From assembly GCA_022826965.1 (NCBI GenBank), contig JAJDTU010000005.1, forward strand, positions 372,001 to 436,000: a stretch of DNA of 64,000 nucleotides. Direction: 5' to 3'. The position numbers and the translations under genes were made by a program. A model generated the notes under the pieces. The model ran no database searches, had not been told where the DNA came from, and saw only the letters and a program-made list of their open reading frames with translations. The stretch is from Dehalococcoidia bacterium. Its GTDB lineage: Bacteria > Chloroflexota > Dehalococcoidia > Bin125. Positions 19,624 through 59,991 of the stretch are shown one piece after another; the first letter of the stretch is position 1, and each line of letters starts with the position of its first letter.

Positions 19624-20907
19624 ATGCTCGGGAACAAATGGAGGCTGTTAAGCCTTGCGTTGATTGCGGTGATCGGCATCATTGCCGGGGGCGTCTACGC
19701 GGTCCATCACGGGGATACGGAGGTTCGGGTCGCGGTTCAGCGGCACGACGACGGCCGCGTGGAGGTTGCGGTCCAGCAACGCGACGCAAACGGCGGTTGG
19801 GGCGAGCGGGAGCTTCCTCCAGCTCGATTCCTGCCGGCTGATGTCACTGGGGAATGGCGCGTGTCGACGCCGGTGAGCGTCGGCGAGGCGCATGCGGCCG
19901 ATGACATGATGGGCGAGCCGATGCCGGAGGCGTCGATGCCGTCGGACGGCACGGCGGAGTTGTACTGCGTCATACACCATGGGGCTGACACTGATCCGTT
20001 CTGGTTCGCGTTCAATCAGGCGGCGCGCGGCAGCGCCCTGGCGCTGGGCTTGACCAATGTCGAAGTGTCGGGCGAGCCGGACGTGGCGGCGCACGCTGCT
20101 GCGATCACGGATTGCGTCGAGCGCGGCGCGCTTGGCATCGCCTCGACGATTCCGGACCTGGCCGGCCTGCAAGATGCGCTGACGGCGGCTCGTGGCAGCG
20201 CGTTCCTGATCACCTTCAACTCCGGCGCGGATGTTGCCGGTCTGGTGGGCTCGACGGTGCACTACGGGCTGGACGACCGGACAGCCGGATCGCTCGCCGG
20301 CGGCGAGTTCAACGCCGCGGGTGTGACGGGGACCGTGCTCTGCGTCATCCACGAAGAGGTGAACATCGGCCTCAACGACCGCTGTGACGGGCTGGAGGAC
20401 AGTTACGGCGGCTCGGTCGAGCGCGTCAATCTGAGCGCTGGGGACTTGATTGATCTGGCCTACCACAGGCAAGCGGGCGCCGAGATCGCCGGCGCGATCA
20501 TGGCGAACGAGGCTGCGGGCGTCCTGGTCCTCAACGGCGCGCTGGCCCAGACGGCCACCGGAACCGTGGCCGCTATCGGTAGCGAGGCCAAGGTCGGCGT
20601 GATCGGGGCGGCGGTGGCGGCGCCGTTCCTGGTTGACGAGGGCGACCTGCTGTTCGCCATCGCCGACGGGTCGCAGGAACAGGCGACTCACGTGCTGCTG
20701 GCGCTGAAGAACGTTGACGCGAATCCCGGCGCACGCGCGCTGCTGACCCTGTCGGCGAGTCAGGCGCAGGCGACGACGACCATGCTGATACGTCCGATTG
20801 TGCTAAACCAGGACTACATCAGCAACTTCCCGCCCGACTGGAGGGTCCAAGCCTGCGCGCTGGCCAAGCAGTTCTCGGCGGCAGCGGTCTCAGGGTTCTG
20901 CGAGTAG
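19624..20907 (+). CDS. Membrane-tethered periplasmic-binding-like protein, copy 1
   Basis: 427 residues; ATG 19624 chosen with GGAAGGCGG upstream. An N-terminal hydrophobic anchor (residues about 6-26) has no lipobox or clear cleavage site. A module of about 45 residues follows (VRVAVQRHDDGRVEVAVQQR ... WGERELPPARFLP ... EWRVSTPV), then a type I periplasmic-binding domain from about residue 115 with HHGADTDPFWFAFNQ, LITFNSGADVAGL and CVIHEEVNIGLNDRCDGL. The fold binds sugars, purine-like or autoinducer-like ligands outside the membrane. No ABC permease, ATPase or kinase is adjacent, so it may be a sensor or orphan receptor rather than a transporter subunit. A close paralogue follows in tandem and a third lies at 32018. 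Function is inferred from fold only. Confidence 0.78.
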   Translation: MLGNKWRLLSLALIAVIGIIAGGVYAVHHGDTEVRVAVQRHDDGRVEVAVQQRDANGGWGERELPPARFLPADVTGEWRVSTPVSVGEAHAADDMMGEPMPEASMPSDGTAELYCVIHHGADTDPFWFAFNQAARGSALALGLTNVEVSGEPDVAAHAAAITDCVERGALGIASTIPDLAGLQDALTAARGSAFLITFNSGADVAGLVGSTVHYGLDDRTAGSLAGGEFNAAGVTGTVLCVIHEEVNIGLNDRCDGLEDSYGGSVERVNLSAGDLIDLAYHRQAGAEIAGAIMANEAAGVLVLNGALAQTATGTVAAIGSEAKVGVIGAAVAAPFLVDEGDLLFAIADGSQEQATHVLLALKNVDANPGARALLTLSASQAQATTTMLIRPIVLNQDYISNFPPDWRVQACALAKQFSAAAVSGFCE

Positions 20908-20934
20908 CTCCCGCGTCAAAGAGCGGCAAGAACG

Positions 20935-20968
20935 GAGGGCGGGCCATGGGGCCCGCCCTCGACCGTTT
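20935..20968 (+). terminator. Stem-loop terminator after copy 1
   Basis: An 11-bp perfect stem (GAGGGCGGGCC / GGCCCGCCCTC) with an ATGG loop, followed by GACCGTTT. An almost identical stem follows copy 2, so the terminator was duplicated with the gene. Confidence 0.6.
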
Positions 20969-21071
20969 AACCTTCCAGTCGTCCCCAGCAGGCGAGATTG
21001 GCCCCCGGGTTCGCTAGTGACCCGTTCTGGATTTTGCGTGTCCGATTCAGGGGACTTAGTCTTCCTTCGAT

Positions 21072-21101
21072 GATGATCTCCTGTAAGTTATGTGGATCAT
21101 C
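21072..21101. promoter_or_regulatory. Inverted repeat upstream of copy 2 (possible operator)
   Basis: GATGATC (21072-21078) and its inverted copy GATCATC (21095-21101) flank a 16-base AT-rich spacer, 27 bases before the chosen start of copy 2. It overlaps a region that could hold a promoter. There is no matching repeat upstream of copy 1, so binding by a regulator is only a suggestion. Confidence 0.3.
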
Positions 21102-21127
21102 ACGTTCAACCGACATTGGGAGACGAC

Positions 21128-22408
21128 ATGTTGCGAGATAAGTGGCGATTGTGCTGTCTGGTCCTCCTGGGCGCGATTGGGATCGTTGCCGGCGCGGTGT
21201 ATGCCGCGCAGAGCGGCGAGACGGAAGTACGAGTCGCGGTACAGCGGCACGACGACGGCCGCGTGGAAGTGGCCGTGCAGCAACGCGAGGCCGACGGCGG
21301 CTGGGGCGATCGACAACTTCCCACGGCGCGCTTCCTGCCGCCCGGCGTGAGCGGCGAGTGGCGGGCGTCGTCGCCGGTGAGCGTGGGCGTCGGGCCGGCG
21401 ATGTCGGACGGCGCGATGCCGCACGGATCGATGCCGTCGGGCGACGGTCCAGGCGAGCCGTACTGCGTGGTTCACCACGGAGCGGATACCGATCCCTTCT
21501 GGTTCGCATTCAACCAGACGGCGCTCGGCAGTGCCGCGGCGCTTGGGCTGACCAACGTGGAGGTAAAGGGCGAGCCGGACGTGGCCGCGCACGCCGCCGC
21601 GATCGACGACTGCGTGAAGCGTGGCGCGCTTGCCATCGCCACGACGATTCCTGACCCAGACGGTTTGCGCGATTCGCTGGTAGCGGTCCGCGGCAGCGCC
21701 TTCCTGATTACTTTCAACTCCGGCGCGGAAGTCGCCGGGCTTGTCGGATCGACGGTCCACTACGGTCTGAATGACCGAGTTGCGGGTGCGTTGGCCGGCG
21801 GCGAGTTCAATGCCGCTGGAGTGACCGGCACCGTCCTCTGCGTGCTACACGAGCCGGTGAACATCGGACTAAGGGATCGCTGCGACGGCCTTGAATCCAG
21901 CTACGGCGGCTCGGTCGAGCGCGTCAGGATCACTGCCGGCGATCTGACCGATCGGGCCTCTCACATCGCTGCGGGCCGCGAGATCGCGGCCGCCATCATG
22001 GCGAGCCAGGCCGAGGGCGTCGTGGTCCTCAATGGGGCGCTGGCCCAGACGGCCACGGGAACTGTGGCTGCTATCCGTAGCGAGGCCAAGGTCGGAGTGA
22101 TTGGGGCTGCAGTGGCAGCGCCGTTCCTCGTCGACGACGGCGCGCTCTTGTTCGCCATCGCTGATGGCTCTCAGGAGCAGGCGACGCACGTGCTGCTGGC
22201 GCTGAAGAACATCGACGTGAATCCTGCCGCCCGCGCGCTGCTAAGCCTGTCGGCAGCCCAGGCCCAGGCGACGACCACAATGCTGATTCGCCCCGTGGTC
22301 CTGAACCAGGCCTACATCAGCAACTTCCCGCCGAACTGGAGGGCCCAGGCCTGCGCGCTGGCGCAACAGTTCGCCGCCCAACTGGTCTCAGAGTTCTGCC
22401 CCGAATAG
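21128..22408 (+). CDS. Membrane-tethered periplasmic-binding-like protein, copy 2
   Basis: 426 residues; ATG 21128 chosen because GGGAG lies just before it and the sequence then aligns with copy 1 from the first residue. Anchor, DDGRVEVAVQQR module and binding domain are the same as in copy 1. Most changes fall in the linker at about residues 90-112. Core ligand-site segments such as ITFNSGAEVAGLVGSTVHYG and QEQATHVLLALKN are nearly unchanged, which points to a shared ligand. The tandem arrangement, and the duplicated terminator, show a segmental duplication. Each copy has its own upstream region, so expression could differ. Confidence 0.78.
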   Translation: MLRDKWRLCCLVLLGAIGIVAGAVYAAQSGETEVRVAVQRHDDGRVEVAVQQREADGGWGDRQLPTARFLPPGVSGEWRASSPVSVGVGPAMSDGAMPHGSMPSGDGPGEPYCVVHHGADTDPFWFAFNQTALGSAAALGLTNVEVKGEPDVAAHAAAIDDCVKRGALAIATTIPDPDGLRDSLVAVRGSAFLITFNSGAEVAGLVGSTVHYGLNDRVAGALAGGEFNAAGVTGTVLCVLHEPVNIGLRDRCDGLESSYGGSVERVRITAGDLTDRASHIAAGREIAAAIMASQAEGVVVLNGALAQTATGTVAAIRSEAKVGVIGAAVAAPFLVDDGALLFAIADGSQEQATHVLLALKNIDVNPAARALLSLSAAQAQATTTMLIRPVVLNQAYISNFPPNWRAQACALAQQFAAQLVSEFCPE

Positions 22409-22433
22409 CCAGGAACAAGGAGAGTAACTCCCG

Positions 22434-22462
22434 AGGGCGGGCCAATCGGCCCGCCCTATTTT
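22434..22462 (+). terminator. Rho-independent terminator after copy 2
   Basis: A 10-bp perfect stem (AGGGCGGGCC / GGCCCGCCCT) with an AATC loop, followed by ATTTT. It matches the stem after copy 1. Confidence 0.78.
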
Positions 22463-22521
22463 GGTTTCCGGCTCTACGGAGGAAGATTCCTCCAAACAGC
22501 ACTGCGAATCGGCGAAGGCCG

Positions 22522-23154
22522 TCAGGTGCAGCGGGTGCAGTGAACGGAGGGCGGCGCGTTAGCAGCTGTACCGATTAGATCTGTGATTCTGGTCAGATCC
22601 GATAGAAACCAATCGTCATCTCGAGCTATTCGCTCGCAGAGTTGTACATGTACGGAATCCCCGGACCGCCTGCACCATGCGACCCAGAGCTGCGCAATCG
22701 GATGTACCCCGCGCTGAACATTCTTGGGGTCCTCAGCCAAGAGAGCGTAGGCATGTAGCTGCCTCGCAACAAACAGGGAACTGAACTCGCTTCGCGTGGC
22801 GGTCGACGGCCTAATCAGGGCGAACCCTCCGGTTGCCAACTTGAGAGGCACTGGAAGCTCACCCGAAACCACAACCGGCTCGGGATACGAACCCAAGGTG
22901 AACGGCTCTGTCGACAGGCGAAGAGCCGCGCTCTGAAACGTTCCCAACGGGAGCTGAGCGCTCACATCAAGAGACGAGAGGCCAGCGAAGGCGCGATTAG
23001 CTCGGTAGCGAGTGCGCGTGCGCTTGCCTCGGTGGTCGGCCGCGGCGAGGTCTTCGCCATCGCGCCAGAATCTTTGAATGCAGCGGTCACAACTGGCGTA
23101 AGAGGCCAGCTCTGAGACCTTGAACCGCAGGGTTGCGGAAAACGGACTATTCAC
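22522..23154 (-). CDS. Hypothetical protein, degenerate PD-(D/E)XK (Cas4/RecB-like) candidate
   Basis: 210 residues, lower GC than neighbours. The ends carry C-x-x-C pairs (C22-D-R-C25 and a CTRC near the C-terminus). The N-terminal FKVSELASYASCDRCIQRFW resembles the start of RecB/Cas4-type nucleases, and ARQLHAYALLAE resembles the conserved helix after the catalytic strand. At the expected G-x-x-D and (D/E)-x-K positions the sequence reads SGELP and GGFALIRPST, so the catalytic acids and Lys seem to be missing. If the relationship is real, this is an inactive nuclease that may bind DNA or a metal cluster. The assignment is by eye and weak; the protein may be unrelated. It precedes no recognisable defence gene. 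Confidence 0.5.
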   Translation of the reverse strand: MNSPFSATLRFKVSELASYASCDRCIQRFWRDGEDLAAADHRGKRTRTRYRANRAFAGLSSLDVSAQLPLGTFQSAALRLSTEPFTLGSYPEPVVVSGELPVPLKLATGGFALIRPSTATRSEFSSLFVARQLHAYALLAEDPKNVQRGVHPIAQLWVAWCRRSGDSVHVQLCERIARDDDWFLSDLTRITDLIGTAANAPPSVHCTRCT

Positions 23155-23301
23155 TGAAATCCCCGTTCATGCAGAGGGTGCGAGTCGTGAAATCGCATCA
23201 GAGAACGGAGACCTTGAGGCGTCAAGACCATCGGACTAGACTTGCCATGGCTGCAGCGCGGGGGCTAGGTTTGCAAGCACAGCCCCGGAGCCGCGTCCTC
23301 T

Positions 23302-23331
23302 GAGCGATCTCCCACGAGGTCGCTCATTTTG
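23302..23331 (+). terminator. Intrinsic terminator without an obvious upstream gene
   Basis: A 10-bp stem with one G-T wobble (GAGCGATCTC pairing with GAGGTCGCTC), loop CCAC, followed by ATTTTGCTT. It lies in the 285-base space between two minus-strand genes and points the other way. A GGGGCT/AGCCCC stem lies about 40 bases upstream. Confidence 0.55.
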
Positions 23332-23439
23332 CTTCCCTGTAGACGCTAGTACCTGTTTACGAACTCACCAGGGGGAATGAGCTACAGGCGCGGGCCTTGC
23401 CCGTCAGTTTCGTTTTCGACTTTTCGTGTCTCTCGCATT

Positions 23440-24108
23440 TCACTCGAATGGCAGATCGCCAGATTCGACCTTCGTTGGAGGCCCTGCAGCACTCGAAGAA
23501 TCTGCCGGCGCTTCCTCGCGACTCGGTATCGGCTCTCCGTCCAGCATTCGGAACATGCTGGGTCCCGCCTTCGTGAACCGCTCACTCTTTCCAAGGTGGT
23601 AGTACAGAGATGCCTGGGCTGTTGCCGTGTTTCTGTACCTGTCGGGAGCAAGCGTCAGCACGTGCTCGGCGAATTCGTGCAAGGGAATGGTGCCTTCATG
23701 CGCAGATGCGAACGCGGCGGCCTCCTTCACGATGTCCACCTGCTCGGCTCCATCGCCGACAAGTTTTCTCCGCACTCTCGGCTTTCCTGAGGCTGGGTGG
23801 CGTCGCGTAATGTCTCGCTCGAGTTCCCTTTGTCGTTCAACGGACCGGAGTTCGCGGAGCGCTCTCTCTGCCCGTACCAGAGGGTCGCGGATGCCTATGA
23901 AGCCCCGCTCCGCTGACTGCTGCGGCTGATGAGCAGCGCCTTCAAGGGATACTGCTGCTCCTTCCAGTGTTCTCTGTTCTTCCAGCAGACGTACCAACTC
24001 CTCGAGATCCTGTATGGCGCTTGTAGTCTGCGCATGAATCGCGGGGCTAAGTGAACGAGCCTTCTCACGCAACACTCTCACTGCGGTTCGATCGTTTCTG
24101 TCCATCAT
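23440..24108 (-). CDS. HARE-HTH-like helical protein, unknown function
   Basis: About 222 residues. Start taken at ATG 24108; an upstream TTG is possible. The N-terminal half is a charged helical, coiled-coil-like region ([29 protein letters not shown]). The C-terminal half (about 140-200) has IPLHEFAEHVLTLAPDRYRN followed by ASLYYHLGKSERFTKAGP and MFRML. This resembles the HARE-HTH winged helix found in ASXL proteins and in some bacterial restriction and DNA-binding proteins. A DNA-linked role is therefore possible. The gene is lower in GC than neighbours, and together with the preceding hypothetical gene forms a small island. Confidence in the domain match is moderate. Confidence 0.55.
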   Translation of the reverse strand: MMDRNDRTAVRVLREKARSLSPAIHAQTTSAIQDLEELVRLLEEQRTLEGAAVSLEGAAHQPQQSAERGFIGIRDPLVRAERALRELRSVERQRELERDITRRHPASGKPRVRRKLVGDGAEQVDIVKEAAAFASAHEGTIPLHEFAEHVLTLAPDRYRNTATAQASLYYHLGKSERFTKAGPSMFRMLDGEPIPSREEAPADSSSAAGPPTKVESGDLPFE

Positions 24109-24254
24109 GTCCCTGTCCAATTGCTGTGAGTCATTCTCTAAGAGGCCTATATCAGTCTAGCAGTTCGGAACACGTTTCGTCGGAGCCATCCGCCGCCGAC
24201 GCCGCTCTGTTAACCTCGATGCATACCGCATCCGAAACGGGAGGATCGCTCCGC

Positions 24255-26243
24255 ATGGTTACCGAGACACGACCTACGACACTGGTTGGCGTTAGCCATC
24301 CGCTTGACCCCTTGACCGCTGATGAGATTTCGGCGGCTTCTCAGATTGCCTCCTCGCACGAGGCTCGGGATGGGTGGCGATTTCCCCTAGTGGCTCTGGA
24401 CGAGCCGGCCAAGGATGTGGTTCGCGGATTTTCGGAGGGGGACGCGATTGAACGGCGGGCTCTGGTCCTGCTGCATGACATCACGACCGGGGACTCGGTC
24501 GAGTGCGTGGTTGACCTGGGCTCGGAGTCGGTGGTTCGCTGGACTCCTCTGGAGGGGCAGCAGCCGTTTCCGTTGATGGAGGAGTTTGGGCGGGCGGTGG
24601 AGGCGGTTCGCTCGGACTCTCGCTGGCTGGCGGCGATGAAGTCCCGCGGGTTCAGCGATGAGCAGATCGAGCTGATCCAGATCGACCCCTGGCCGGGCGG
24701 CAACTTCGGCACCGCCTGGGAGAACGAGCACCGCACGCTCAAGGCGATCTCGTACCTGCGCGATTCGGAGGAGTCGAACGGGTACGGGCGGCCAATCGAG
24801 CATGTGATGGCCGTGGTCGACCTGGTCGCGAACAAGGTGATCGACGTCGTCGACGAGCCCGGTCCGCCGGCGCCGGAGACCTCGCTCGACTACCGCTACA
24901 ACGACATCGCGCCGCGCGAGGGCCTGCAGGCGCTCGACATCGTCCAGCCGGACGGCGTCTCGTTCACCCTCGACGGCCATCTGCTGTCCTGGCAGAAGTG
25001 GCAGATGCGCGTCTCGCTGCATCCGCGCGAGGGTCTGGTCCTGCACCAGATCGCCTACAACGACGACGGCGAGTTGCGGCCGATCTGTTACCGGGCGTCG
25101 ATGACCGAGATGGTCGTGCCTTACGGCGACGCATCGCCTACGCAGTACTTCAAGAACGCGTTCGACTCGGGCGAGGTTGGCGGGCTGGGCCGGCTGAGCA
25201 ACTCGCTCGAGCTGGGTTGCGACTGCCTCGGCGAAATCGTCTACCTGGACGGTTATGTGACGAACGAGTTCGGCGGTTCGCGCACGATCAAGAACGCGGT
25301 CTGCATCCACGAGGAAGACTTCGGCATCAACTGGAAGCACACTCGAGTCGAGAACGACATCCCGGTCTCCGAGGTGCGGCGTACGCGGCGGCTGGTGGTG
25401 TCGGCGATCGCCACGGTTGGCAACTACGACTACGGCTTCTACTGGACGTTCTACCCGGACGGCTCGTGGGAGCAAGAGGTCAAGGCGACCGGGATCGTGC
25501 AGACGATCGCCGCCGACCCCGACGACCCGCAGATCACGCGTCACATGATCGCGCCCGGTCTGGCCGCGCCGATCCATCAGCACTTCCTCTGCTTCCGGAT
25601 GGACATGGAGGTCGACGGTGGGACGAACACCGTCTACCAGGTCGACACGCAGCCGCTGCCGGCGGGTCCGGAGAATCCCCACAATAACGCGTTCACGGCG
25701 GTTGCGAAGCCGCTGCTGAGCGAGACCGATGGCGAGGGCGTGGTCAACGCGGCTTCGGCGCGTCACTGGCGGATCGCCAACACGAACAAGGTCAATCACG
25801 TCGGCCATGCGCCGGCCTACCTGTTGGTCCCCGGCGAGACGGTCGCAATGATGGCCGGTCCAGAGGCGGCAGTCCGTGGTCGCGCCGGCTTCACCCAGAA
25901 GCAGCTCTGGGTGACGCCTTACGACGATTCGGAGTTTTATCCCGCGGGCAACTACCCGAATCAGAGTCTGCCGGGCGAGGGCATACCCGCCTGGGTCGCG
26001 GCCGACCGCGAGATCGCGGACGAGGATGTCGTGCTCTGGTACACGGTGGGGATGAATCACATCGTGGTGCCCGAGGACTGGCCGGTCGCGCCGGTGCATC
26101 GCAGCGGATTCAAGCTGCGCCCGTCGGGCTTCTTCAGCCATAACCCGGCACTCGACCTGCCGGCTCCCGACCACTGCGCGCACGACATGGAGCATGAGGG
26201 CCACGAGCACTCGAACCACGTTGGCCACAACGGTCACAGCTAG
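24255..26243 (+). CDS. Copper-containing primary-amine oxidase, copy 1
   Basis: 662 residues, close in sequence to the bacterial phenylethylamine/histamine oxidases of Arthrobacter type. ATG 24255 has GGAGG upstream. Key residues: catalytic base D304 (FDSGE), the topaquinone precursor Y391 (GNYDYG), and copper ligands H441, H443 and H602. The N-terminal N2 and N3 domains and the large beta-sandwich are all represented. The enzyme oxidises primary amines to aldehydes with release of ammonia and H2O2, and forms its own cofactor from Y391 and copper. The last 25 residues are very His-rich, which may help load copper. No signal peptide is visible. A second copy follows 8 bases after the stop. Confidence 0.95.
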   Translation: MVTETRPTTLVGVSHPLDPLTADEISAASQIASSHEARDGWRFPLVALDEPAKDVVRGFSEGDAIERRALVLLHDITTGDSVECVVDLGSESVVRWTPLEGQQPFPLMEEFGRAVEAVRSDSRWLAAMKSRGFSDEQIELIQIDPWPGGNFGTAWENEHRTLKAISYLRDSEESNGYGRPIEHVMAVVDLVANKVIDVVDEPGPPAPETSLDYRYNDIAPREGLQALDIVQPDGVSFTLDGHLLSWQKWQMRVSLHPREGLVLHQIAYNDDGELRPICYRASMTEMVVPYGDASPTQYFKNAFDSGEVGGLGRLSNSLELGCDCLGEIVYLDGYVTNEFGGSRTIKNAVCIHEEDFGINWKHTRVENDIPVSEVRRTRRLVVSAIATVGNYDYGFYWTFYPDGSWEQEVKATGIVQTIAADPDDPQITRHMIAPGLAAPIHQHFLCFRMDMEVDGGTNTVYQVDTQPLPAGPENPHNNAFTAVAKPLLSETDGEGVVNAASARHWRIANTNKVNHVGHAPAYLLVPGETVAMMAGPEAAVRGRAGFTQKQLWVTPYDDSEFYPAGNYPNQSLPGEGIPAWVAADREIADEDVVLWYTVGMNHIVVPEDWPVAPVHRSGFKLRPSGFFSHNPALDLPAPDHCAHDMEHEGHEHSNHVGHNGHS

Positions 26244-26251
26244 GAGCGGCG

Positions 26252-28210
26252 GTGGTCACGGAAGCTGCAACGGGGACGCATTTCCTCGACCCGCTGTCGG
26301 CAGATGAGATCGTTCGCGCATCGACGATCATCAGCGAGCACCTCGGCTCGCCGGATTCCTTGCGCTTTCTCCTGGTCGCCGCCCTCGAACCACGGAAGGG
26401 CGCCGAGGCAACGCCGCGCTGCGCAGAGGCCGTCTGCATCGACATCGGGACGGGCCTGACCACAGAGGTGGTCGCCGACCTTGAAGCGGGTGTCGTGACA
26501 TCGGTCACCGAGCGTGCGGATGTGCAGCCACCGGCATTATTCGAGGAATACGAACGGGCAGACGCGACGATTCGCGCGGACGACGGTTGGCGCTCGGCGA
26601 TGCGCGGTCGCGGACTCAGCGACGAGCAGATCGATCTGTCCTTTATCCACCTCTGGCCGACCGGCAACTTCGGCTCCCGTTGGGAGATGGAGCACCGCAT
26701 CCTCAAGGGCATCGTCTACCTGCGCGACGAACCGGAGGACAACGCCTACGGGAGGCCGGTCGAGGGCCTTATCGCGATCGTCGACCTGGCCGCGGATTGT
26801 GTGCTCGAAGTGGTCGACGAACTGTCACCAGCGCCGGCGATCTCATCGCTCCGCTTCGACCACGACCACGGCGGACCGCCTCGAGAAGATTTGAAACCGC
26901 TCGACATCGTCCAACCTGACGGACCGTCGTTCACGCTTGAGGGTCACCTGCTCAAGTGGCAGAAGTGGCAGATGCGCGTTTCCCTGCATCCGCGCGAGGG
27001 ACTGGTGCTGCACAAGATCGGATACGAAGACAGCGGCCGATTGCGGCCGATCTGTTATCGCGCGTCATTGGCCGAAATGGTCGTGCCCTACGGAGACGCT
27101 TCGGTCGGGCACTACTTCAAGAACGCATTCGACTCGGGTGAGTGCGGCATCGGACGGTTGGTCAACTCGCTGGAGCTTGGCTGCGACTGTCTGGGTGAGA
27201 TTGTGTACCTCGACGGTGTCGTCACCGACGAACGCGGTGGCGCGAGGACAATTACGAACGCGATTTGCATCCACGAAGAGGATGCCGGGTTGCTCTGGAA
27301 GCACACCTATCGGCATCCCGACGAACGCGGGACTCAATCCTGGCTGCGGCGCTCGCGGCGGCTGGTGATCTCGACGATCGCCACGGTCGACAACTATGAC
27401 TACGGCTTCTACTGGTACTTCTACCAGGATGGTTCATGGGAGCACGAAGTCAAAGCGACCGGCATCATCCAGACGATGGCCATCGAAGACGACGACCCAC
27501 AGGTCACGCGCCACAGGATCGGTCCGCGGTTGGCCGGTGTACATCATCAGCACTTCCTCAGTTTCAGGCTGGACATGGAGGTCGACGGACCCCAGAACAC
27601 GGTCTACGAGGTTGACACCGTGCCGTTGCCGCCGGGTCCGGAGAATCCCTACCACAACGCCTTCACGGCGCAGGCGACCCCGATCCGCGACGAGTCGCAG
27701 AGCGGTCGAGAAGTCGAATCCGCCGCGGCTCGCCACTGGCGGATCGCGAACGACTCGATCAGCAATCCGATCGGGGAGCCGACAGCCTATGTGCTCACAC
27801 CCGGCGCCACGGTTTCGATGATGGCGGGCGAGCAGTCGATGATCGCGCAGCGGGCTGCGTTCGCGCGCAAGCAGCTCTGGGTGACGGCCTACGAACCGGC
27901 GCAGCGCTTTCCGGCCGGCGACTATCCCGCACAGAGCGAGCCAGGACTTGGGATTCCAGCGTGGGTTGCCGAGAATCGCCCGCTCGAGCAGGCCGACATC
28001 GTGCTCTGGTACACGGTCGGCATGAATCACCTCGTCCGACCCGAGGACTGGCCAGTGATGCCGGTCCAGCGGGCCGGCTTCGGCATGAAACCGTGGGGGT
28101 TTTCCGACCGCAACCCTGGTCTCGATGTGCCACCGCCGGACCACTGTGAACGTGACACGGCGCTCGGGTCGAGTCAGCACGCTCATCACTCGCACAACAG
28201 TCACTGTTAG
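26252..28210 (+). CDS. Copper-containing primary-amine oxidase, copy 2
   Basis: 652 residues; GTG 26252 chosen because the encoded start (MVTE) matches copy 1 and an AGGAG site precedes it. Active-site residues: base D294 (FDSGE), topaquinone precursor Y382 (DNYDYG), and copper ligands H432, H434 and H593. It has a His-rich tail like copy 1 but shorter. Both copies therefore look catalytically complete and were kept after duplication. They could differ in amine preference, since the loops around the active site vary. The pair is followed on the same strand by the EctB-like gene. Confidence 0.95.
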   Translation: MVTEAATGTHFLDPLSADEIVRASTIISEHLGSPDSLRFLLVAALEPRKGAEATPRCAEAVCIDIGTGLTTEVVADLEAGVVTSVTERADVQPPALFEEYERADATIRADDGWRSAMRGRGLSDEQIDLSFIHLWPTGNFGSRWEMEHRILKGIVYLRDEPEDNAYGRPVEGLIAIVDLAADCVLEVVDELSPAPAISSLRFDHDHGGPPREDLKPLDIVQPDGPSFTLEGHLLKWQKWQMRVSLHPREGLVLHKIGYEDSGRLRPICYRASLAEMVVPYGDASVGHYFKNAFDSGECGIGRLVNSLELGCDCLGEIVYLDGVVTDERGGARTITNAICIHEEDAGLLWKHTYRHPDERGTQSWLRRSRRLVISTIATVDNYDYGFYWYFYQDGSWEHEVKATGIIQTMAIEDDDPQVTRHRIGPRLAGVHHQHFLSFRLDMEVDGPQNTVYEVDTVPLPPGPENPYHNAFTAQATPIRDESQSGREVESAAARHWRIANDSISNPIGEPTAYVLTPGATVSMMAGEQSMIAQRAAFARKQLWVTAYEPAQRFPAGDYPAQSEPGLGIPAWVAENRPLEQADIVLWYTVGMNHLVRPEDWPVMPVQRAGFGMKPWGFSDRNPGLDVPPPDHCERDTALGSSQHAHHSHNSHC

Positions 28211-28326
28211 CAATCAATGACAGAGCAGCGCAGGACGTTGGCCTCGAAATCGGGCATAGTGGAGGTAGTGGCTTCCGGCGGGGCGCCTGATTGTGAGGGT
28301 CGTGGATGGTCTCCGGGGTCTCTGCG

Positions 28327-29577
28327 ATGAGCGGACTTGAAGCGTTCGAGGAGTTGGAATCCGAGGTCCGGTCGTATGTGCGGGCCTGGCCGGCGGTCTG
28401 GTCGCGGGCGCACGGTGCGTCGCTGTGGGACGAAGCCGGGCGGGAGTATCTCGATTTCTTTTGCGGCGCCGGCGGTCTGAACTACGGGCACAACGACAAC
28501 GCGATGATCGAGGCGCTGACTCGATATCTGCGGTCGCAGGGGATCGTCCACTCGCTGGACATGGCGACAACCGCCAAGCGCGATTTCCTCGAGCGATTCA
28601 ACGACGTGATTCTTAAGCCGCGCGGGATGTCGTACAAGGTGATGTTCCCGGGCCCGACCGGGACGAACGCGGTGGAAGCATCGCTCAAGCTGGCGCGCAA
28701 GGTGACGGGACGGCAGGACATCGTCTCGTTCACCAACGCCTTTCACGGGATGACCCTGGGCGCGTTGGCGTTGAGCGGCAACGTGGTCAAGCGGGAGTCG
28801 GCGGGGATCCCCCTGGAACACCAGATCACCGCTCCGTACGACGGCGAACTTGGCGCGGATGTCGACAGCGTTTCGGTGCTGGACGCGATGCTGGCCGACG
28901 ACGGTACGTCGGTGGCGGGCGTGATTGTCGAGACAGTGCAAGGCGAAGGCGGGTTGCACAGCGCAGATGTTGGCTGGCTGCAGCGGTTGGCGGAGTGCTG
29001 CAAGCGGCACGAGGTCCTGCTAATCGTGGACGACATCCAGGCCGGATGCGGTCGGACGGGGACATTTTTTTCCTTCGAGCCGGCCGGGATTCAGCCTGAT
29101 CTGATCTGCCTGTCCAAGTCGATCTCGGGCAGCGGCCTACCGATGTCGCTGACGCTGATTCGACCCGATCTCGACGTCTGGTCGCCGGGCGAGCACAACG
29201 GGACGTTCCGCGGCAACAATGCGGCGTTCGTGACGGCAACTGAAGCGCTGAACTGGTGGGTGGATGACTCGCTCGCGGAGGATGTGCATCGCAAGTCGGC
29301 GATGATTCGAGCGGAGCTGGCGTCGATCGCGGCCGAGCACGAGTCGATGCGGGCGACGGTTCGCGGACGCGGGTTCCTGCAGGGCCTGCACACGCCGATC
29401 GAGGGTCTGGCGTCGAGGATCTGCGCTGCAGCGTTTGAGCGCGGCCTGCTGATGGAGACCTCCGGAGGCTCAGCCTCGGACGTGGTCAAGCTGATGCCCC
29501 CGCTGACGATCGAAGACGCGGAGCTTGAGCGCGGTTTGGCCATCCTGCGCGCCAGCGTCGAGACAGTCGCGCCCTAG
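28327..29577 (+). CDS. Diaminobutyrate aminotransferase (EctB)-like class III aminotransferase
   Basis: 416 residues that match the EctB group very closely: FEELESEVRSY at the N-terminus, GAGGLNYGHNDN, GIVHSLDMATTAKRDF, FPGPTGTNAVEASLKLAR, SFTNAFHGMTLG, DDIQAGCGRTG and SKSISGSGLPMS with Schiff-base K264, then WSPGEHNGTFRG. EctB transfers an amino group from glutamate to aspartate semialdehyde to make 2,4-diaminobutyrate, the first step to ectoine. No ectA or ectC gene lies in the window, so a diamine role with the preceding amine oxidases is also possible. The second in-frame ATG (28327) is preferred because it gives the usual short leader before FEELESE. It overlaps the penicillin-acylase gene by four bases at the stops. 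Confidence 0.88.
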   Translation: MSGLEAFEELESEVRSYVRAWPAVWSRAHGASLWDEAGREYLDFFCGAGGLNYGHNDNAMIEALTRYLRSQGIVHSLDMATTAKRDFLERFNDVILKPRGMSYKVMFPGPTGTNAVEASLKLARKVTGRQDIVSFTNAFHGMTLGALALSGNVVKRESAGIPLEHQITAPYDGELGADVDSVSVLDAMLADDGTSVAGVIVETVQGEGGLHSADVGWLQRLAECCKRHEVLLIVDDIQAGCGRTGTFFSFEPAGIQPDLICLSKSISGSGLPMSLTLIRPDLDVWSPGEHNGTFRGNNAAFVTATEALNWWVDDSLAEDVHRKSAMIRAELASIAAEHESMRATVRGRGFLQGLHTPIEGLASRICAAAFERGLLMETSGGSASDVVKLMPPLTIEDAELERGLAILRASVETVAP

Positions 29578-31835
29578 CTGGGACTCAGCGTCAGGCTGCC
29601 CTCGCTGTGGGCCTCGATGTCGTCCCACTCGATGTAGAGCGGGAAGTACTCCATCTCGAGCCACTTGTGGATGTGGTCGTTGTAGTGCGGGCTGTCGGGA
29701 CGGCCAGAGTTGCCCGGCGGTAGGACGATTCGCGCCCCGTTGAGATTGGACAGATCGAAGATCTGGCGATAGCTGACGCCGTGGTCGGCCGGCTTGTTGA
29801 TCAGTCCTGTGGCGTTGTTCGGCGTGTTGCCGTCGCCGCCTTTGGGGAAGTCGCCCACGTTGAAGCGAGCGGCGCGCTCGGGGTCTCGGCCGAGGTTGTG
29901 ACGCCAGGTGACGGGATGCACGTCGCCGTACTTCCATCGGGTTGGGTCACTGCCGTGGCGTTCGCTGAGCACGGTCGCGGTGCTCGCCAGGGCCTCGCCA
30001 ATGGCGTCGTCCCACGATTGACCGTCCGCCAATGCGAGCGAGCTGTCGCTCTTGAGTTGCTCGTGCAGGATTCGCATCTCCTCGTAGGAGCTCTCGGGAA
30101 CTCTCGATGGCGCGTTGAAGTAGGGCCGAACGGTCAGGCCGATCAGTTGCTCGCAGAACTCGTAGTAGACCAGGGCCGCCGCGGAATCGATGGCCATATG
30201 CCCGTCCCAGTTCGCGAGCAACGAGTGCAGCTCGGGGCTGGTCCCGTTGCCGAGCCTGGCCCGGCCGACGCGTTCTGCGATGAATCTGGCGTGCAGGCTG
30301 GTCTGGTCTGACTGGATAGTCGGCATATCGTCCGGCGACCAGTCGTCTCGGCCTTGCAGCAGTTCGCGCAACCGGTCGGCGCGATACGGGGTCTGGCTAA
30401 AGCTGAGGTAGTACGGGTAGTCGTCGGTGGTGGTGCGGTTGTTGGCGGTGATGATCACGCCGTTGGCGGGATTCAGGTCCTGCGGCAGCTCATCGGCGGG
30501 GATATCGCCGATCCACTCGTGCTCGCCGTCCCAGCCCTTGACCGGGGTGAGGTTGGCCTCGCGAATCGGAATCCGGCCGGTGTACTGATAGCCGATGTCG
30601 CCCTGCTGGTCGGCGAAGCAGAAGTTGCCCGAGATTGAGTCGTAGCGGCGGAAGCCCTCTCGGGCGTCATGGATGTTGTCGGCGGTGAAGATCGTCAGCA
30701 TGCCGTCGAAGTCGTGGCACGGATCTGACAGACCGAATCGAGCGGTCAGGACTTCGTCGTCCGTTTGCGGATCACCGTGCACGACCGGACCGTGTCGGGT
30801 CGACCAGACGGTTTGCGTGACCGATTCCTCACCACGGATCTCGATGACCTCATCCCGGCGCTGCAGCGGCTCGGAGTCGTCGAGCCACTCCGCCTCGGGA
30901 CCTGCTCCGTTGCGCACGATCCGCTCCCGGTAGACATCCCAACGGTCGCCCTGGGCGTGGGTCATGGTCCAACCGATTTGTGTGTTGTGTCCGTAGTAGA
31001 CCGGACCTGGATAGCCAGGACTGCATGGTCCGGCGACGGTGAACTCCGGGCACTGCATGTGCATCACGTACCACTGCGGGGGAACGCTGAAGGCGAGGTG
31101 CGGATCGCCGACGACCAGCGGTTTGCCGCTGGCCGTGTGCGCGCCATCGATGACCCAACAGTTGGAGCCGTCGAGTCCTCCGCGCCGGGTTCCGGGCTCT
31201 GCCTCCAGGTCGGCGAGCGCGCCTGCGAAGGCATGCGCGCCATTGGTCCACGAGGCGCCCGCCGGGGCGATCAAGGCGGAATCTGCAGGGACATCGGGGA
31301 TCAGCGCCTGCAGCGCTTCGACTCCCAGCCGAGCGGCGACCTCTCCGTTGCCGATCTTGGTCGCCCAGTGGACGTTGGCCGAGACCATCTTGAGGATGGC
31401 GAGCGAATCGACCGGCGACCAGGGCTGCATTTCGTGGTCGAGCAATCCGAACTCGACGGGAGCGGGTCCAGCAGCGATGGCGGCGTTGATGCCGTCGGCG
31501 TAGGCCTGGAGGATTAATCGCGCCTCGTCCGACTGCTCTTCCCACTCGCGCGCAGCATCGCGGCCGAAGCCGAGGGCGCGGTTCATCCTGTCGATTCGCA
31601 ACAGGCCCTTGTTCAAGAGCGAGGCGGCGCGTCCGTGCGCCATGTGGCGGTAGAGTTCCAGCTGCCAACCGCGGTCCTGGCCGAGGCAGAATCCCTGAGC
31701 GAAGAAGGCGTCGCGGACAGATTGCGCCTCGGCGTGAGGGACGCCCCAACGGTCGCGGACAATGCGTACGGGGCGCTCCAGGCCCTCGGCCTGCAGTTCA
31801 CCGTCGATCTGGGGAAGTGTGAGCTGTTTCGTCAT
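29574..31835 (-). CDS. Penicillin acylase (Ntn hydrolase) family protein
   Basis: 753 residues of the penicillin G acylase family, which hydrolyse amide bonds in beta-lactams, acyl-homoserine lactones, polyamine-acyl compounds or other N-acyl compounds after self-cleavage into alpha and beta chains. The likely nucleophile is S224, the N-terminal residue of the beta chain after cleavage (GLDGSNCWVIDG), preceded by a spacer of the usual kind. Other family blocks: DRWGVPHAEA at the start, GQDRGWQLE, VGDPHL and YYGHNTQIGW. No signal peptide is seen, unlike exported family members, so the protein is probably cytosolic. ATG 31835 is favoured over a GTG 9 bases upstream. Confidence 0.92.
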   Translation of the reverse strand: MTKQLTLPQIDGELQAEGLERPVRIVRDRWGVPHAEAQSVRDAFFAQGFCLGQDRGWQLELYRHMAHGRAASLLNKGLLRIDRMNRALGFGRDAAREWEEQSDEARLILQAYADGINAAIAAGPAPVEFGLLDHEMQPWSPVDSLAILKMVSANVHWATKIGNGEVAARLGVEALQALIPDVPADSALIAPAGASWTNGAHAFAGALADLEAEPGTRRGGLDGSNCWVIDGAHTASGKPLVVGDPHLAFSVPPQWYVMHMQCPEFTVAGPCSPGYPGPVYYGHNTQIGWTMTHAQGDRWDVYRERIVRNGAGPEAEWLDDSEPLQRRDEVIEIRGEESVTQTVWSTRHGPVVHGDPQTDDEVLTARFGLSDPCHDFDGMLTIFTADNIHDAREGFRRYDSISGNFCFADQQGDIGYQYTGRIPIREANLTPVKGWDGEHEWIGDIPADELPQDLNPANGVIITANNRTTTDDYPYYLSFSQTPYRADRLRELLQGRDDWSPDDMPTIQSDQTSLHARFIAERVGRARLGNGTSPELHSLLANWDGHMAIDSAAALVYYEFCEQLIGLTVRPYFNAPSRVPESSYEEMRILHEQLKSDSSLALADGQSWDDAIGEALASTATVLSERHGSDPTRWKYGDVHPVTWRHNLGRDPERAARFNVGDFPKGGDGNTPNNATGLINKPADHGVSYRQIFDLSNLNGARIVLPPGNSGRPDSPHYNDHIHKWLEMEYFPLYIEWDDIEAHSEGSLTLSPS

Positions 31836-32017
31836 GCCTGCCACTCCGTGGTCTGGTTCCGCTGTTCGCCATGAATGGTAGTCCCGCCCCTTGTGGGTGA
31901 GGCTCCCCTACCTGACGCCCATTGCTGCGCCCGCGGCGTTGCGGGTTATGTCGCGGACTGTTCAACGTTATGCTCGTGAGCAGTTTCGATTATGAACCTA
32001 GTTCCTTTGGGGGCAGC

Positions 32018-33277
32018 ATGAAGCATCTCGGTAAATCGCACCTGGTGACGTTGCTCATCGGACTGGTGCTGGGAGCGATCGCGCTAGGCGCCGTTCAGGC
32101 TGCGATCAGCGTGACGAGCGACGTACGGATCGGCGTCAAGCGACTCGACGACGGCCGTGTCGAGGTCAAGCTGCAGCAGCTCGATGAAGAGGCCTGGGTC
32201 GACCTTGACGCCGCTGACGCTCGGTTCCTCCCGACGGACGCAGAGGTCGATCGGTGGCGCTACAGCTCGTCAATCGCGGTGGTTGGGACGGTTGAGACAG
32301 AGCCCGTGGTCCGAGCGGATCCGCCTGTGATGTGCGTGCATGGTCACGCGCATCCTCGCGACGATCGATTCTGGCGCTGGGCGCTCGCGGCGTCCGACGT
32401 GGCTACGTTCCAGTACGGCGTCGACGTGCGGCTGTACGGCGCCACCGATGCCGAGCAGCACGTCAACGGCATCCGGGACTGCATCTCGCATGATCCAATC
32501 ACGATCGCCACATCGCTTCCGTACGCGGAAGAGTTGGAAGAGGTGTTGGCCGAGGCGAGGGCTGCGGGCATTCACGTCGTGACCTTCAACTCCGGCGCGG
32601 ACGACGCGGCGACGGTGGGTTCGTTGGTGCACATCGGACTCGACGACTTCGGCGGCGGCGAGCGCGCGGGCGACGAATTTAACCGGCAGGGCGTGAGCGG
32701 CACGTTGCTCTGTGTCGTGCACGAGGAGGACAACGTCGGCCTGCACGACCGCTGCGACGGCATTGGCGAGACGTACGAGGGCGGCGATGTCGAACGGATC
32801 TCCGTGGATCTGACGACTGCCGAGGCGCTTGGCGCGGGCCATGCCGAACACTCGCGGCCCGAGCACTTGCAGACATTGATCGCCGAGCGCATCGCTGAGG
32901 GCGGTGTCGGCGCCATCCTGACGCTCAACCACGACAGCGCTGTTGCCGCGATGTCGGCGATCGAAGAAGCGCAAGCCGAGATCGCGCTGGCGAGCTTCGG
33001 ATTCAGCGACACTCTGGCCGATGCGGTCCGCGATGGGCAAATGCGGTTTGTGGTCTGGGATCACCCGGTAGCGCAGGGTTACCTGGCGGTTTCCGGGATG
33101 GCCATGGCTTACACGCTGGAGCTAAGTCAGCTCAATCCCGGAGTCTTCCTGAATGGAGCGAAGATTCTGATCGAGCCGACCCTCGCGAACCAGGAGCGCG
33201 CCGCCGAGCTGAAGTCGATGTTCGCCGGTCCGCCGCCGAGTCCTCCGGATGAATCGGACGAGGCCGAGGGCAACTGA
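32018..33277 (+). CDS. Membrane-tethered periplasmic-binding-like protein, divergent third paralogue
   Basis: 419 residues; ATG 32018 with a GGGGG stretch upstream. It has the same plan as the tandem pair: N-terminal membrane anchor (LVTLLIGLVLGAIALGAV), the module VRIGVKRLDDGRVEVKLQQ ... ADARFLPTD ... RWRYSSS, then a type I binding domain with VVTFNSGADDAATVG, GLDDFGGGERAGDEFN and CVVHEEDNVGLHDRCDGI. The ligand-binding region differs more, so it may bind a different ligand. The C-terminus is a proline/acidic tail (PPPSPPDESDEAEG). No transporter or kinase gene lies beside it. Confidence 0.75.
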   Translation: MKHLGKSHLVTLLIGLVLGAIALGAVQAAISVTSDVRIGVKRLDDGRVEVKLQQLDEEAWVDLDAADARFLPTDAEVDRWRYSSSIAVVGTVETEPVVRADPPVMCVHGHAHPRDDRFWRWALAASDVATFQYGVDVRLYGATDAEQHVNGIRDCISHDPITIATSLPYAEELEEVLAEARAAGIHVVTFNSGADDAATVGSLVHIGLDDFGGGERAGDEFNRQGVSGTLLCVVHEEDNVGLHDRCDGIGETYEGGDVERISVDLTTAEALGAGHAEHSRPEHLQTLIAERIAEGGVGAILTLNHDSAVAAMSAIEEAQAEIALASFGFSDTLADAVRDGQMRFVVWDHPVAQGYLAVSGMAMAYTLELSQLNPGVFLNGAKILIEPTLANQERAAELKSMFAGPPPSPPDESDEAEGN

Positions 33278-34428: not shown

Positions 34429-34932
34429 CTAGCCGGCCAGTCCCTCGACCACGCGCGCGTTGGGCAGACGGGCCAGCTCGTCGGCCTTCACGCCCAGCTT
34501 GAGCGAACGGCTGCCGCCGCCCAACCACATCACGGCGTCGCCGCTGATCCGGGCATCGATCAATATGGGAATCTCAGCGGGCAGATCGAACGGGGTGACG
34601 CCGCCGGAGAGCATGCCGGTGACCGCTTCTGTCTCCTCGAACGAGGCGAATGAGCATTTCCGTACGCCCATTTCCTTGCGCACCGTGCGGTTGACGTCGA
34701 GTCGTGTGTTGGCGAGCACGAGGCAGGCGGCATAGCTCTTCGGTTCCTTCTTCGAGGCCACCAGGATGGTGTTGACCGACGCCTCGTGCGGAATACCGAA
34801 GACCTCACAGAAGACAGCGGTGTCCGCCTGGTCGGGTCGGCAGGCGATGGTCTCGTAGCTGATCTGGTTGTCGGCCAGGAATTTGCGGACCCTGGCTTCA
34901 ATCGCGTCGGCGGCTGGGTCGGAGTCGGTCAT
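34429..34932 (-). CDS. YbaK/aminoacyl-tRNA deacylase domain protein
   Basis: 167 residues of the YbaK/ProX-type editing domain, which removes misacylated amino acids (usually Ala or Cys) from tRNA. Typical features are the VSFxxx-type strand region EASVNTILVASKKEPKSYAACLVLANTRLDV with the conserved Lys, and VTPFDLPAEIPILIDARI and LGGGSRSLKLGV near the C-terminus. The start at 34932 (MTDSDP) has a modest purine-rich stretch upstream. It is a free-standing editing factor acting in the cytosol. It is divergent from the ABC importer operon. Confidence 0.85.
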   Translation of the reverse strand: MTDSDPAADAIEARVRKFLADNQISYETIACRPDQADTAVFCEVFGIPHEASVNTILVASKKEPKSYAACLVLANTRLDVNRTVRKEMGVRKCSFASFEETEAVTGMLSGGVTPFDLPAEIPILIDARISGDAVMWLGGGSRSLKLGVKADELARLPNARVVEGLAG

Positions 34933-34947
34933 CTGGGGTCCCAAAGT

Positions 34948-34976
34948 GTGCAATCTGGGTTACGAAGGGTTATATT
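34948..34976 (+). promoter_or_regulatory. Candidate promoter of the first ABC importer operon
   Basis: A TATATT hexamer at 34971-34976 with GTGCAA 17 bases before it, inside an AT-rich patch in otherwise GC-rich DNA, 75 bases before the binding-protein start. It resembles a sigma70-type site with a poor -35 box. Confidence 0.35.
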
Positions 34977-35050
34977 ACGCGGACGCGTATTGCCGACACC
35001 GCGGAATCGTGTCCGACGGCTGTCCGGCCGTAGCCACTGAGGAGCGAAAC

Positions 35051-37096
35051 ATGGAAGAGCGAAACTACTGGAAGCGGATGCAGCGCAAGCGGCTCAGTCG
35101 TCGGTCCCTGATGTCAGCCTCAGCACGGGCGGGCGTCGGCGCGGCCGGTTTGGCGCTGGTCGGTTGTGGTGACGACGATGACGACGCCCAGCCCGCCGCG
35201 GCGCAGGCCCAGCCGCAGCAACAGCAGCAGGCGCAGCCACAGCCGGCGCAACAGCAACAGACTGCCGCCCAGCAGCAGGCTCAACAGGCTGCCGCGCAGC
35301 AGGCGACGACTCAGCAAGAGGTACAAGAGGAGGAAGCGGTCGCCCTGCTCCCCGGTCAGTTGACGGCCGAGGAAGAGGCGATGTCGCTGACGCCGGAAGA
35401 AGAGTGGCGACTGCGCTTCCACTGGTCCAAGCTGCAAAACCTGCCCGGTCAAGCGGATGGCCCGCGCTACGGCGGCGAGTGGACGTTGGCTCACCTGCCG
35501 GTGGCGAACTGGAACGTGGTGGGACCGCAGGCGAACATCATGGCCGCCTTCGCGCCCATGTTCTACAACCAGCTCGTCGTCTTCCCGATGGACGACTGGG
35601 CGAACGCGCACTACTACGAGATCGAAGGCGACGTTGCCAAGGCCTGGGAAGTCCCGGACGACACGACCATTGTGTTCACGATTCACGATGGGGTGCAGTG
35701 GCAGGACAAGCCGCCGCTGAACGGTCGCACGTTGACCGCTGAAGACGTCAAGATCGCATATGACGCGCTTCGAGACGGTTCGTTCCTGGCCCACGAGGGT
35801 GAAGTTGACCCGGTCCCGGTGCAGGCATCGTCCTACACCGCAGTCAAAGACATCGACTTCGACAACGCGTCGAACACGGTGCGCTTCAACCTGTTGGAGC
35901 CGGCGGCATATCTGCTCAACAACATGCTGAACCCGTTCCACCAGATTGCGGCGCCGGAGTTCATTACCACCGACTACACGGTGCTCGATGACTGGCGCAA
36001 CACGGTTGGGACCGGTCCGTTCATTCTCGACTTCGTCGAGCAGGGGGCGGAATGGAAGGCGTCGAGGAATCCGAACTACTTCAAGCTGGATCCACGAACG
36101 GGCAAGCAACTTCCGTATCTCGACGCTCTGCACGGTCCAGACTTCGTCAACCAGCGCGAGTCGGAGTGGGCGGCCTGGGAAAGCGGCGTGATCGACCGTC
36201 TGACGATCCAGGACATCGCCGACTACGAACGCGCCCTGGATACGCAGCCCGACACGGTTGTACAGGTCACGGCGCCGCCGCCAGGGTGGCAGCCCTATCT
36301 GTCCTTCCACAACCTCGACGAACCGCCCTTCAACGACATCCGCGTTCGCCAGGCACTCGCACTCGGCCTGAACCGCGAGGAGCAGAAGCTCGGCGTCTAC
36401 GACGGCCTCGCCGCTGCCGGATACGGTCAGAACTGGACATTCTTCCGCGACGACGATTCGCCGTGGGGATTCCGTGAGTGGCCATGGACGCCGGCGGAGC
36501 TGGGTGAGTTCGGCGACTTCGATGCCGCCAAGGGTCGGCAGTTGCTCGACGCCGCCGGCTACAACGAAGACAATCAGCTTGAGTTCGAAGCGACGTTCCA
36601 CGCCGTCGCCGGTGTGTACCTGAACCTCTTCGAGCTCTGCCGCCAGCAGTGGAACACGAACCTCGGCATCCAGGTCAACCACTTCCAGGTTGACCTCGAG
36701 ACCTGGCTGGGGCGGCTCGTCACCCGCGACTTCAAGGACTCGCTGTTCACCTGGCTGATCGGCGCAGAAATGGATGCCGACGGACTGGCCTACGGCAAGC
36801 TGCATAGTGAAAGTCCCGGCAACTTCTACGGCATCTCCGAACCGGACGTTGACGAGTGGTGCATCCAACAGCGCCAGGAACTCGACGTCGACAAGCGATC
36901 GGAGATTCTTGAGAAGATCCGCGTGCGCGAACTCGAGAACATGTGGCGCATCTTCGCCGTCAACCCGTATCGGATTGCCGGGCGTCGTGGTTACCTGTTC
37001 AACGAGATGGACACGTACAACGCCTGGAACCCGGGCTGGGGCGCCACAAACACGGAGCGGATCTGGGAGAACAACCCCGACTTCCCGCGTGCGTAG
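35051..37096 (+). CDS. ABC transporter substrate-binding protein, family 5 (peptide/nickel type)
   Basis: 681 residues. ATG 35051 has GAGGAG five bases before it. The N-terminus has a twin-arginine pattern (LSRRSLMS, R17-R18) and a lipobox ending at C39 (LALVGC), so it is probably a Tat-exported lipoprotein. Residues about 48-95 are a Q/A/P-rich low-complexity linker that holds the domain off the membrane. The binding domain shows YNQLVVF, AWEVPDDTTIVFTIHDGVQW, LTAEDVKIAYDAL and GTGPFILD, all family-5 landmarks. It binds a peptide, opine or other small molecule and passes it to the following permeases. The first gene of an operon of three. Confidence 0.92.
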   Translation: MEERNYWKRMQRKRLSRRSLMSASARAGVGAAGLALVGCGDDDDDAQPAAAQAQPQQQQQAQPQPAQQQQTAAQQQAQQAAAQQATTQQEVQEEEAVALLPGQLTAEEEAMSLTPEEEWRLRFHWSKLQNLPGQADGPRYGGEWTLAHLPVANWNVVGPQANIMAAFAPMFYNQLVVFPMDDWANAHYYEIEGDVAKAWEVPDDTTIVFTIHDGVQWQDKPPLNGRTLTAEDVKIAYDALRDGSFLAHEGEVDPVPVQASSYTAVKDIDFDNASNTVRFNLLEPAAYLLNNMLNPFHQIAAPEFITTDYTVLDDWRNTVGTGPFILDFVEQGAEWKASRNPNYFKLDPRTGKQLPYLDALHGPDFVNQRESEWAAWESGVIDRLTIQDIADYERALDTQPDTVVQVTAPPPGWQPYLSFHNLDEPPFNDIRVRQALALGLNREEQKLGVYDGLAAAGYGQNWTFFRDDDSPWGFREWPWTPAELGEFGDFDAAKGRQLLDAAGYNEDNQLEFEATFHAVAGVYLNLFELCRQQWNTNLGIQVNHFQVDLETWLGRLVTRDFKDSLFTWLIGAEMDADGLAYGKLHSESPGNFYGISEPDVDEWCIQQRQELDVDKRSEILEKIRVRELENMWRIFAVNPYRIAGRRGYLFNEMDTYNAWNPGWGATNTERIWENNPDFPRA

Positions 37097-37116
37097 TCGC
37101 AGCAGAATCTAGACGG

Positions 37117-37152
37117 CACAACATCCCAAACCGCCTGGTTTGGGATGTTGTG
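37117..37152 (+). promoter_or_regulatory. Perfect 16-bp hairpin between binding protein and permease genes
   Basis: CACAACATCCCAAACC and its exact inverted copy are separated by GCCT. There is no T-run after it. It lies 20 bases after the binding-protein stop and 34 bases before the first permease start. Such hairpins often stabilise the upstream message or partly terminate, giving more binding protein than permease. Confidence 0.7.
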
Positions 37153-37186
37153 ACTGTACGAAAGCGGAGACGGGAGGCGCCACAGC

Positions 37187-38149: not shown

Positions 38150-38161
38150 GAGTAACGAACC

Positions 38162-59918: not shown

Positions 59919-59991
59919 CGCACATATCCTCCGCAGTAGGCATGTCGGCAAGCGTGCCGGCAGTCATGGCAGCAAGGCTCAGGGTAGACGC

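Follow-up and report, generated by a model that had tools for sequence, protein, structure and literature searches.

Binding-protein genes and their surroundings

Within the window (the whole 64-kb stretch of DNA analysed, from a Dehalococcoidia assembly of 3.0 Mb), three genes encode P0001, P0002 and P0003 (Table 1), each with the same order of parts: a short positive start, a hydrophobic segment, a module of ~52 residues (DDGRVEV...ARFLP...W in all three), a linker and a Peripla_BP_4 domain (SBP4), as found in substrate-binding proteins (SBPs). That these are real paralogues with a sugar-binding-like domain, as the first-pass annotation had proposed, was borne out by the open reading frames and by domain searches (Peripla_BP_4 E values of 8e-8, 6e-8 and 7e-22), with P0003 scoring above the PF13407 gathering score of 35.1 (78.7 bits) and P0001 and P0002 slightly under it (32.6 and 33.0). 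P0001 has 79% identity to P0002 and 36% to P0003. Relative to orthologues, dN and dS were 0.227 and 1.014 for P0001 (dN/dS ~0.22, against the L110 orthologue), 0.086 and 0.511 for P0002, and 0.055 and 0.523 for P0003 (~0.1); all three genes are under purifying selection (dN/dS about 0.1-0.2), which rules out pseudogenes. A tblastn search of plasmid records with P0001 returned ordinary SBP matches and nothing else.

Table 1. Features of the binding-protein region, in window coordinates (export signals and their possible signal peptidase I sites are called from sequence)
Feature	Positions	Strand	Description
Orphan module-SBP 1 (P0001)	19624-20907	+	427 aa; export signal, module, Peripla_BP_4 domain
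P0001 N-terminal export signal	19624-19701	+	no lipobox; possible site VYA, then V
P0001 module	19717-19881	+	profile A1, E 8.0e-26
P0001 Peripla_BP_4 domain	19990-20658	+	Pfam PF13407, E 7.8e-8
Orphan module-SBP 2 (P0002)	21128-22408	+	426 aa; tandem paralogue of P0001
P0002 N-terminal export signal	21128-21205	+	no lipobox; VYA, then A
P0002 module	21221-21385	+	profile A1, E 1.0e-25
P0002 Peripla_BP_4 domain	21488-22114	+	PF13407, E 6.1e-8
Copper amine oxidase, first of tandem pair	24051/24294-26243	+	between SBP genes
Copper amine oxidase, second of tandem pair	26252-28210	+	between SBP genes
Class III aminotransferase	28306-29577	+	context
Penicillin amidase	29574-31844	-	context
Orphan module-SBP 3 (P0003)	32018-33277	+	419 aa; best PDB fold 4ru1
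P0003 N-terminal export signal	32018-32101	+	no lipobox; VQA, then A
P0003 module	32120-32281	+	profile A1, E 1.6e-21
P0003 Peripla_BP_4 domain	32360-33100	+	PF13407, E 6.9e-22
Peptide-type SBP_bac_5 lipoprotein and two BPD_transp_1-type permeases	34868-39118	+	downstream of P0003

The records closest to P0001 are L110 ('Chloroflexota bacterium isolate RHO2_bin_60'; 79% identity) and L111 ('Dehalococcoidia bacterium isolate jk18x25bins.9'; 63%), and gene order around P0001-P0003 is largely kept in both, including the first copper amine oxidase. The isolate code RHO2 suggests, on our assumption, that this member of the genus is a sponge metagenome-assembled genome. With the penicillin amidase and the aminotransferase, the two oxidases form a conserved amine/amide catabolic locus; further neighbours include an amidohydrolase, a thiolase and an MFS transporter.

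An independently shuffled extracytoplasmic module

A profile of the module (A1, built from 21 copies) found 28 copies genome-wide in the source genome at E <= 1e-3 and 29 at E <= 0.1 (best E 8e-26), a pattern that is not due to chance. Nine module+SBP4 repeats are spread over eight proteins of this genome; the three genes described at the outset are thus members of a larger, lineage-specific family, and a system of three proteins only is ruled out. Each of the 15 genus genomes has the module (10-49 copies), as do 36 of the 393 genomes of a class-wide sample, spanning several families (16 candidates per genome were scored, making copy counts there lower bounds), and 5 of the 400 genomes of a phylum-wide sample, one of them outside the class. 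Searched against Pfam and NCBIfam, 21 diverse copies gave no match below E 0.1, nor did the profile match the PDB (best E 0.17).

Module-bearing proteins are diverse in architecture. An SBP4 domain is present in 85 of the 144 module open reading frames from the fetched loci; the other partners include LIV-type (Peripla_BP_6) and iron-type (SBP_bac_6) binding domains, sCache_2/dCache_2, Cu/Zn superoxide dismutase (SOD; Sod_Cu), Thioredoxin_4, trypsin-like proteases (Trypsin_2), a metallo-beta-lactamase fold (Lactamase_B), bacterial alpha-2-macroglobulin (A2M), LRR, RCC1 and Cadherin-like domains, and one partner has a weak M23 match under the cut-off. Two modules occur in 31 of the 144, close tandems among them, and a single one in the remainder. 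The usual position is directly after the export signal, with C-terminal or deep internal placement in about seven sampled proteins (L092, L094, L135, L181, L186, L130 and L170). R and S positions are near-invariant and a W is common, across very different partner domains. Because partners, copy number and position all vary, the module is a domain in its own right, outside the SBP: an independently shuffled extracytoplasmic domain of one Chloroflexota clade (class Dehalococcoidia). The suspicion that the N-terminal module might be a separate domain was therefore correct, given its unrelated fusions, and it has no counterpart among described families in Pfam, NCBIfam or the PDB; an exclusive tie to binding proteins did not hold, since enzymes and repeat proteins carry it too.

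Several of these architectures were observed in unusual forms. Two alpha-2-macroglobulin proteins of ~2140 aa (L152, 1185-7628, called by Pfam; L153, 3503-9916, called by homology) each begin with two modules. At L010 (5807-9104; C7:139.8-143.1 kb), ~135 extra residues lie between module and SBP in two SBP4 proteins and look like part of a second SBP lobe (LCLVDPKESTLGAMCEGIGETF); similar pairs occur in many genus genomes. The module-Cu/Zn SOD gene at L098 (4746-5534) and its equivalents at L145, L176, L183, L184, L185 and L187 have an ABC ATPase gene within ~0.4-1.1 kb in all seven loci. The gene at L095 (from 4637; C13:106636-107769) combines two modules with a DsbA-like Thioredoxin_4 domain and has an in-frame TGA at the catalytic position (UPNC), as do its orthologues (L204-L216) at the same place in loci from thirteen genus genomes, source included; its product is probably a secreted selenoprotein. 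A second cluster, at L218 (C6:106000-117000) and its genus equivalents, consists of roughly three to five Thioredoxin-like genes in tandem per genome; every gene has a single in-frame TGA, located in the homologous stretch and, in those that were read, at the UxxC site. The window itself encodes SelB (59773-61860; 347.5 bits, above the curated cut-off), and no tRNA-Sec was found within its 64 kb.

Structure prediction served the binding domain better than the module. The P0003 model (mean pLDDT 64.9) has a two-lobe type I SBP fold over the SBP part (mostly 60-93) and matches 4ru1 (TMt 0.86), RbsB and other ribose-binding proteins. For the P0003 module, a few beta strands (32-42, 48-56, 59-63 and 86-90) were predicted at low confidence, and AlphaFold with six sequences did not fold the module with confidence (pLDDT mostly <60 in both models); at this confidence the fold offers no structural analogue that would support polymer binding.

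Export signals and a possible role in surface retention

In monoderms, substrate-binding proteins are usually lipidated. The first-pass annotation saw no usable lipobox in the three proteins, and this extends to the family: none of the 87 module-bearing SBPs (four SBP families, fetched loci) has one, as against at least 21 of the 36 SBPs from these families that have no module (Fisher p 2e-14, uncorrected for kinship between sequences), a lower bound in that the lipobox regular expression missed true lipoproteins (GVACGG, FAACSG). Module and lipobox are mutually exclusive. The same split is seen between neighbours: at the Liv locus of three genomes, a module LIVBP lies beside module-less LIVBPs with a lipobox or lipobox-like cysteine, and at an iron-type locus of the source genome a module-less lipoprotein lies beside a module paralogue that has no lipobox.

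How the N-terminus behaves after export bears on what the module might do. The hydrophobic run ends in an A-x-A-like motif in 113 of the 126 module proteins, compared with 156 of the 236 control transmembrane segments; this enrichment suggests that signal peptidase I cleaves many of the N-termini. The median uncharged N-terminal run of 20 residues is long enough for a transmembrane helix; overall, a membrane tether appears no likelier than a cleaved signal peptide. The membrane anchor attributed to the three proteins thus stands as a hydrophobic N-terminus common to all of them; a lasting tether was not established, the A-x-A enrichment favouring cleavage. Signalling through such an anchor, also suggested at first, is unlikely and was set aside: with about 5-10 residues ahead of the hydrophobic segment, the proteins have no cytoplasmic domain.

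If the N-terminus is cleaved and no lipid anchor is present, another retention device would be needed, or the protein would be lost. From lipobox exclusion and probable cleavage together, which bear on the point indirectly, we infer that the module may be a surface-retention domain that replaces lipidation. In such a mechanism, the export signal would be removed from many module proteins, which carry no lipid anchor, and the module would bind a component of the cell envelope, keeping the protein at the surface. Two points weigh against this: the mutual exclusion may only reflect that module and lipobox both occupy the mature N-terminus, and some N-termini could be uncleaved anchors, with the module a mere stalk.

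The latter point grows into a distinct explanation, in which the N-terminal anchor stays uncleaved and the module is a juxtamembrane spacer that sets the height of the binding or catalytic domain. It would account for the module lying shortly after the hydrophobic segment in most proteins and for the length of the uncharged run; a spacer fits poorly with the C-terminal and internal placements, the close tandems, the enriched cleavage-like motifs, and the conservation of R, S and W across unlike partners, and we regard it as unlikely. Surface retention by the module, extended to the whole exported complement, leads to a broader reading that we hold only tentatively: the module could be the targeting part of an undescribed lipid- and SLH-independent surface-display system of sponge-associated Chloroflexota, addressed to one envelope ligand. 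Tens of exported proteins per genome might then be clients, possibly with the orphan SBPs as the largest client family and with nutrient receptors, SOD, seleno-DsbA, proteases, alpha-2-macroglobulin, and LRR and RCC1 proteins conceivably among them.

Transport, ligand and relation to known systems

We assessed by profile searches whether ABC ATPases or permeases accompany the module SBPs. No CUT2/LIV permease lies within 5 kb of the SBP4 module genes (0 of 85 loci; the sequence extends 5 kb to either side at 47 of them, and the search is incomplete for the remainder), and an ABC ATPase lies within 5 kb at 2 of the 85; a regular-expression match to an ABC ATPase within the window was RecN and was rejected as false. 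The transporter-less state of the SBP4 module family is conserved. The first-pass claim that no ABC permeases lie nearby thus holds for the CUT2/LIV type and fails for the peptide type, a cluster of which begins 1.6 kb downstream of P0003 (with a permease 3.4-3.8 kb downstream of the P0003 orthologue in five other genomes, by synteny). That cluster is of another transporter class and has its own lipoprotein SBP; no ATPase gene was seen adjoining it. All four LIV-type module proteins lie beside LivHM-type permeases, so consistent adjacency to ABC genes, absent for SBP4 members, is present for this group. The module is accordingly no mark of a missing transporter, a property that these proteins rule out, and its presence has no bearing on the transport mechanism.

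A candidate partner for the orphan SBPs is encoded elsewhere. The source genome has one RbsC-type permease (C2:530.8 kb), accompanied by an ATPase and by two SBP4 proteins that have no module, only one of which carries a lipobox; an orthologue of this CUT2 permease occurs in all 15 genus genomes (89-100% identity). In the source genome, the module SBPs and both SBPs of the CUT2 locus have a pocket signature in common (HG..DFW, N.G, H or Y, HE..N..GL..RC, Q). These two observations favour a hand-over of ligand to the shared CUT2 permease as a plausible and the most economical reading of the sequences; such delivery is also the best of the three roles first offered for the binding domain, namely stand-alone signalling, carriage of ligand to shared transporters, and sequestration. 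With the two SBPs encoded at its locus, the CUT2 transporter does not need the orphan ones. One genus genome, G012, has no P0001-type match at E <= 1e-25, the only one of which this is true, and its CUT2 permease frame has an in-frame TAG, a coincidence in a fragmented assembly that is only suggestive. As to the ligand, the best NCBIfam match of all three proteins is a rhizopine SBP model (NF052284; E 7e-14 to 1e-20, at 51-74 bits against a cut-off of 420); rhizopine is an inosamine. The amine/amide gene context, together with CUT2 and rhizopine SBPs as the closest models, leads us to guess at an amine- or cyclitol-type ligand.

Two other roles for the SBPs were weighed against shared transport. 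They might be sensors, a loaded SBP docking on a histidine kinase or chemoreceptor encoded at a distance and so controlling catabolic genes such as the amine oxidase locus. XylFII with LytS is a precedent for an SBP docking on a membrane histidine kinase, and the XylFII-LytSN complex (5xsj) is among the structural matches; the missing dedicated permease at 85 loci and the position kept in an amine/amide catabolic neighbourhood would also suit a sensor. The annotated neighbours include no kinase or receptor gene, and other SBP4 module paralogues sit in different neighbourhoods, which leaves sensing improbable in our view. Nor do we expect, at a comparably low probability, that the SBPs sequester or buffer a ligand at the surface, such as cyclitols or amines from the host, for use outside the cell or in host interaction with no uptake: the pocket signature is common to transporter SBPs and purifying selection is as in ordinary receptors, even with the module present on host-interaction-style proteins (LRR, RCC1, A2M and Cadherin-like) and an apparently sponge-associated genome in the genus. 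Shared transport, combined with retention by the module, would run as follows: the binding domain would capture a small polyol- or amine-type ligand, which might be passed to the shared CUT2 permease or concentrated for neighbouring enzymes (amine oxidases, amidase). Envelope retention and the shared-transporter reading, taken jointly, seem to us about evenly poised between right and wrong.

What is new is the module and its wide use; the binding domains are of a known kind. The module defines a domain family outside the curated libraries searched, one that marks surface and exported proteins in an uncultured clade whose members are probably animal-associated. Should it be a retention domain, it would show a monoderm lineage displaying proteins without lipidation, and one profile would list its surface proteins. 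The nine transporter-less receptor copies per genome pose a testable question, since a single conserved candidate permease exists.

Among known systems, SLH, LysM, SH3b and CW_binding are short surface-attachment modules, often in tandem, that a single lineage spreads over unrelated exported proteins. The module described here resembles them in size, tandems and shuffling; it matches none of them in Pfam or NCBIfam, and its binding is putative. The best solved relative by both sequence (E 1.8e-20) and fold is 4ru1 (ACEI_1806), a CUT2 monosaccharide/cyclitol SBP, which has D-F-W, FN.G and L..RC in common with the module SBPs and lacks their HE..N. Compared with CUT2 SBPs, the module SBPs add the N-terminal module, are without a lipobox, include proteins with two module+SBP repeats, and have no permease or ATPase of their own, departing from the class norm of being encoded with an RbsC-type permease and an RbsA-type ATPase (0 of 85 within 5 kb). 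An amine-type cyclitol, as for the rhizopine SBP, would fit the amine oxidase neighbourhood, but the scores are far under that model's cut-off and no rhizopine transporter genes were seen nearby. The titles and abstracts listed in literature searches on orphan SBPs and sponge Dehalococcoidia SBPs contain no account of this module-SBP family. Encoding of a sugar-type SBP apart from permease and ATPase is described for Synechococcus MsBP, thought to use shared transporters (PMC8938411); MsBP is a cluster D SBP encoded by a single gene, whereas the proteins described here are type I SBPs, form a family of nine repeats and have the module in addition.
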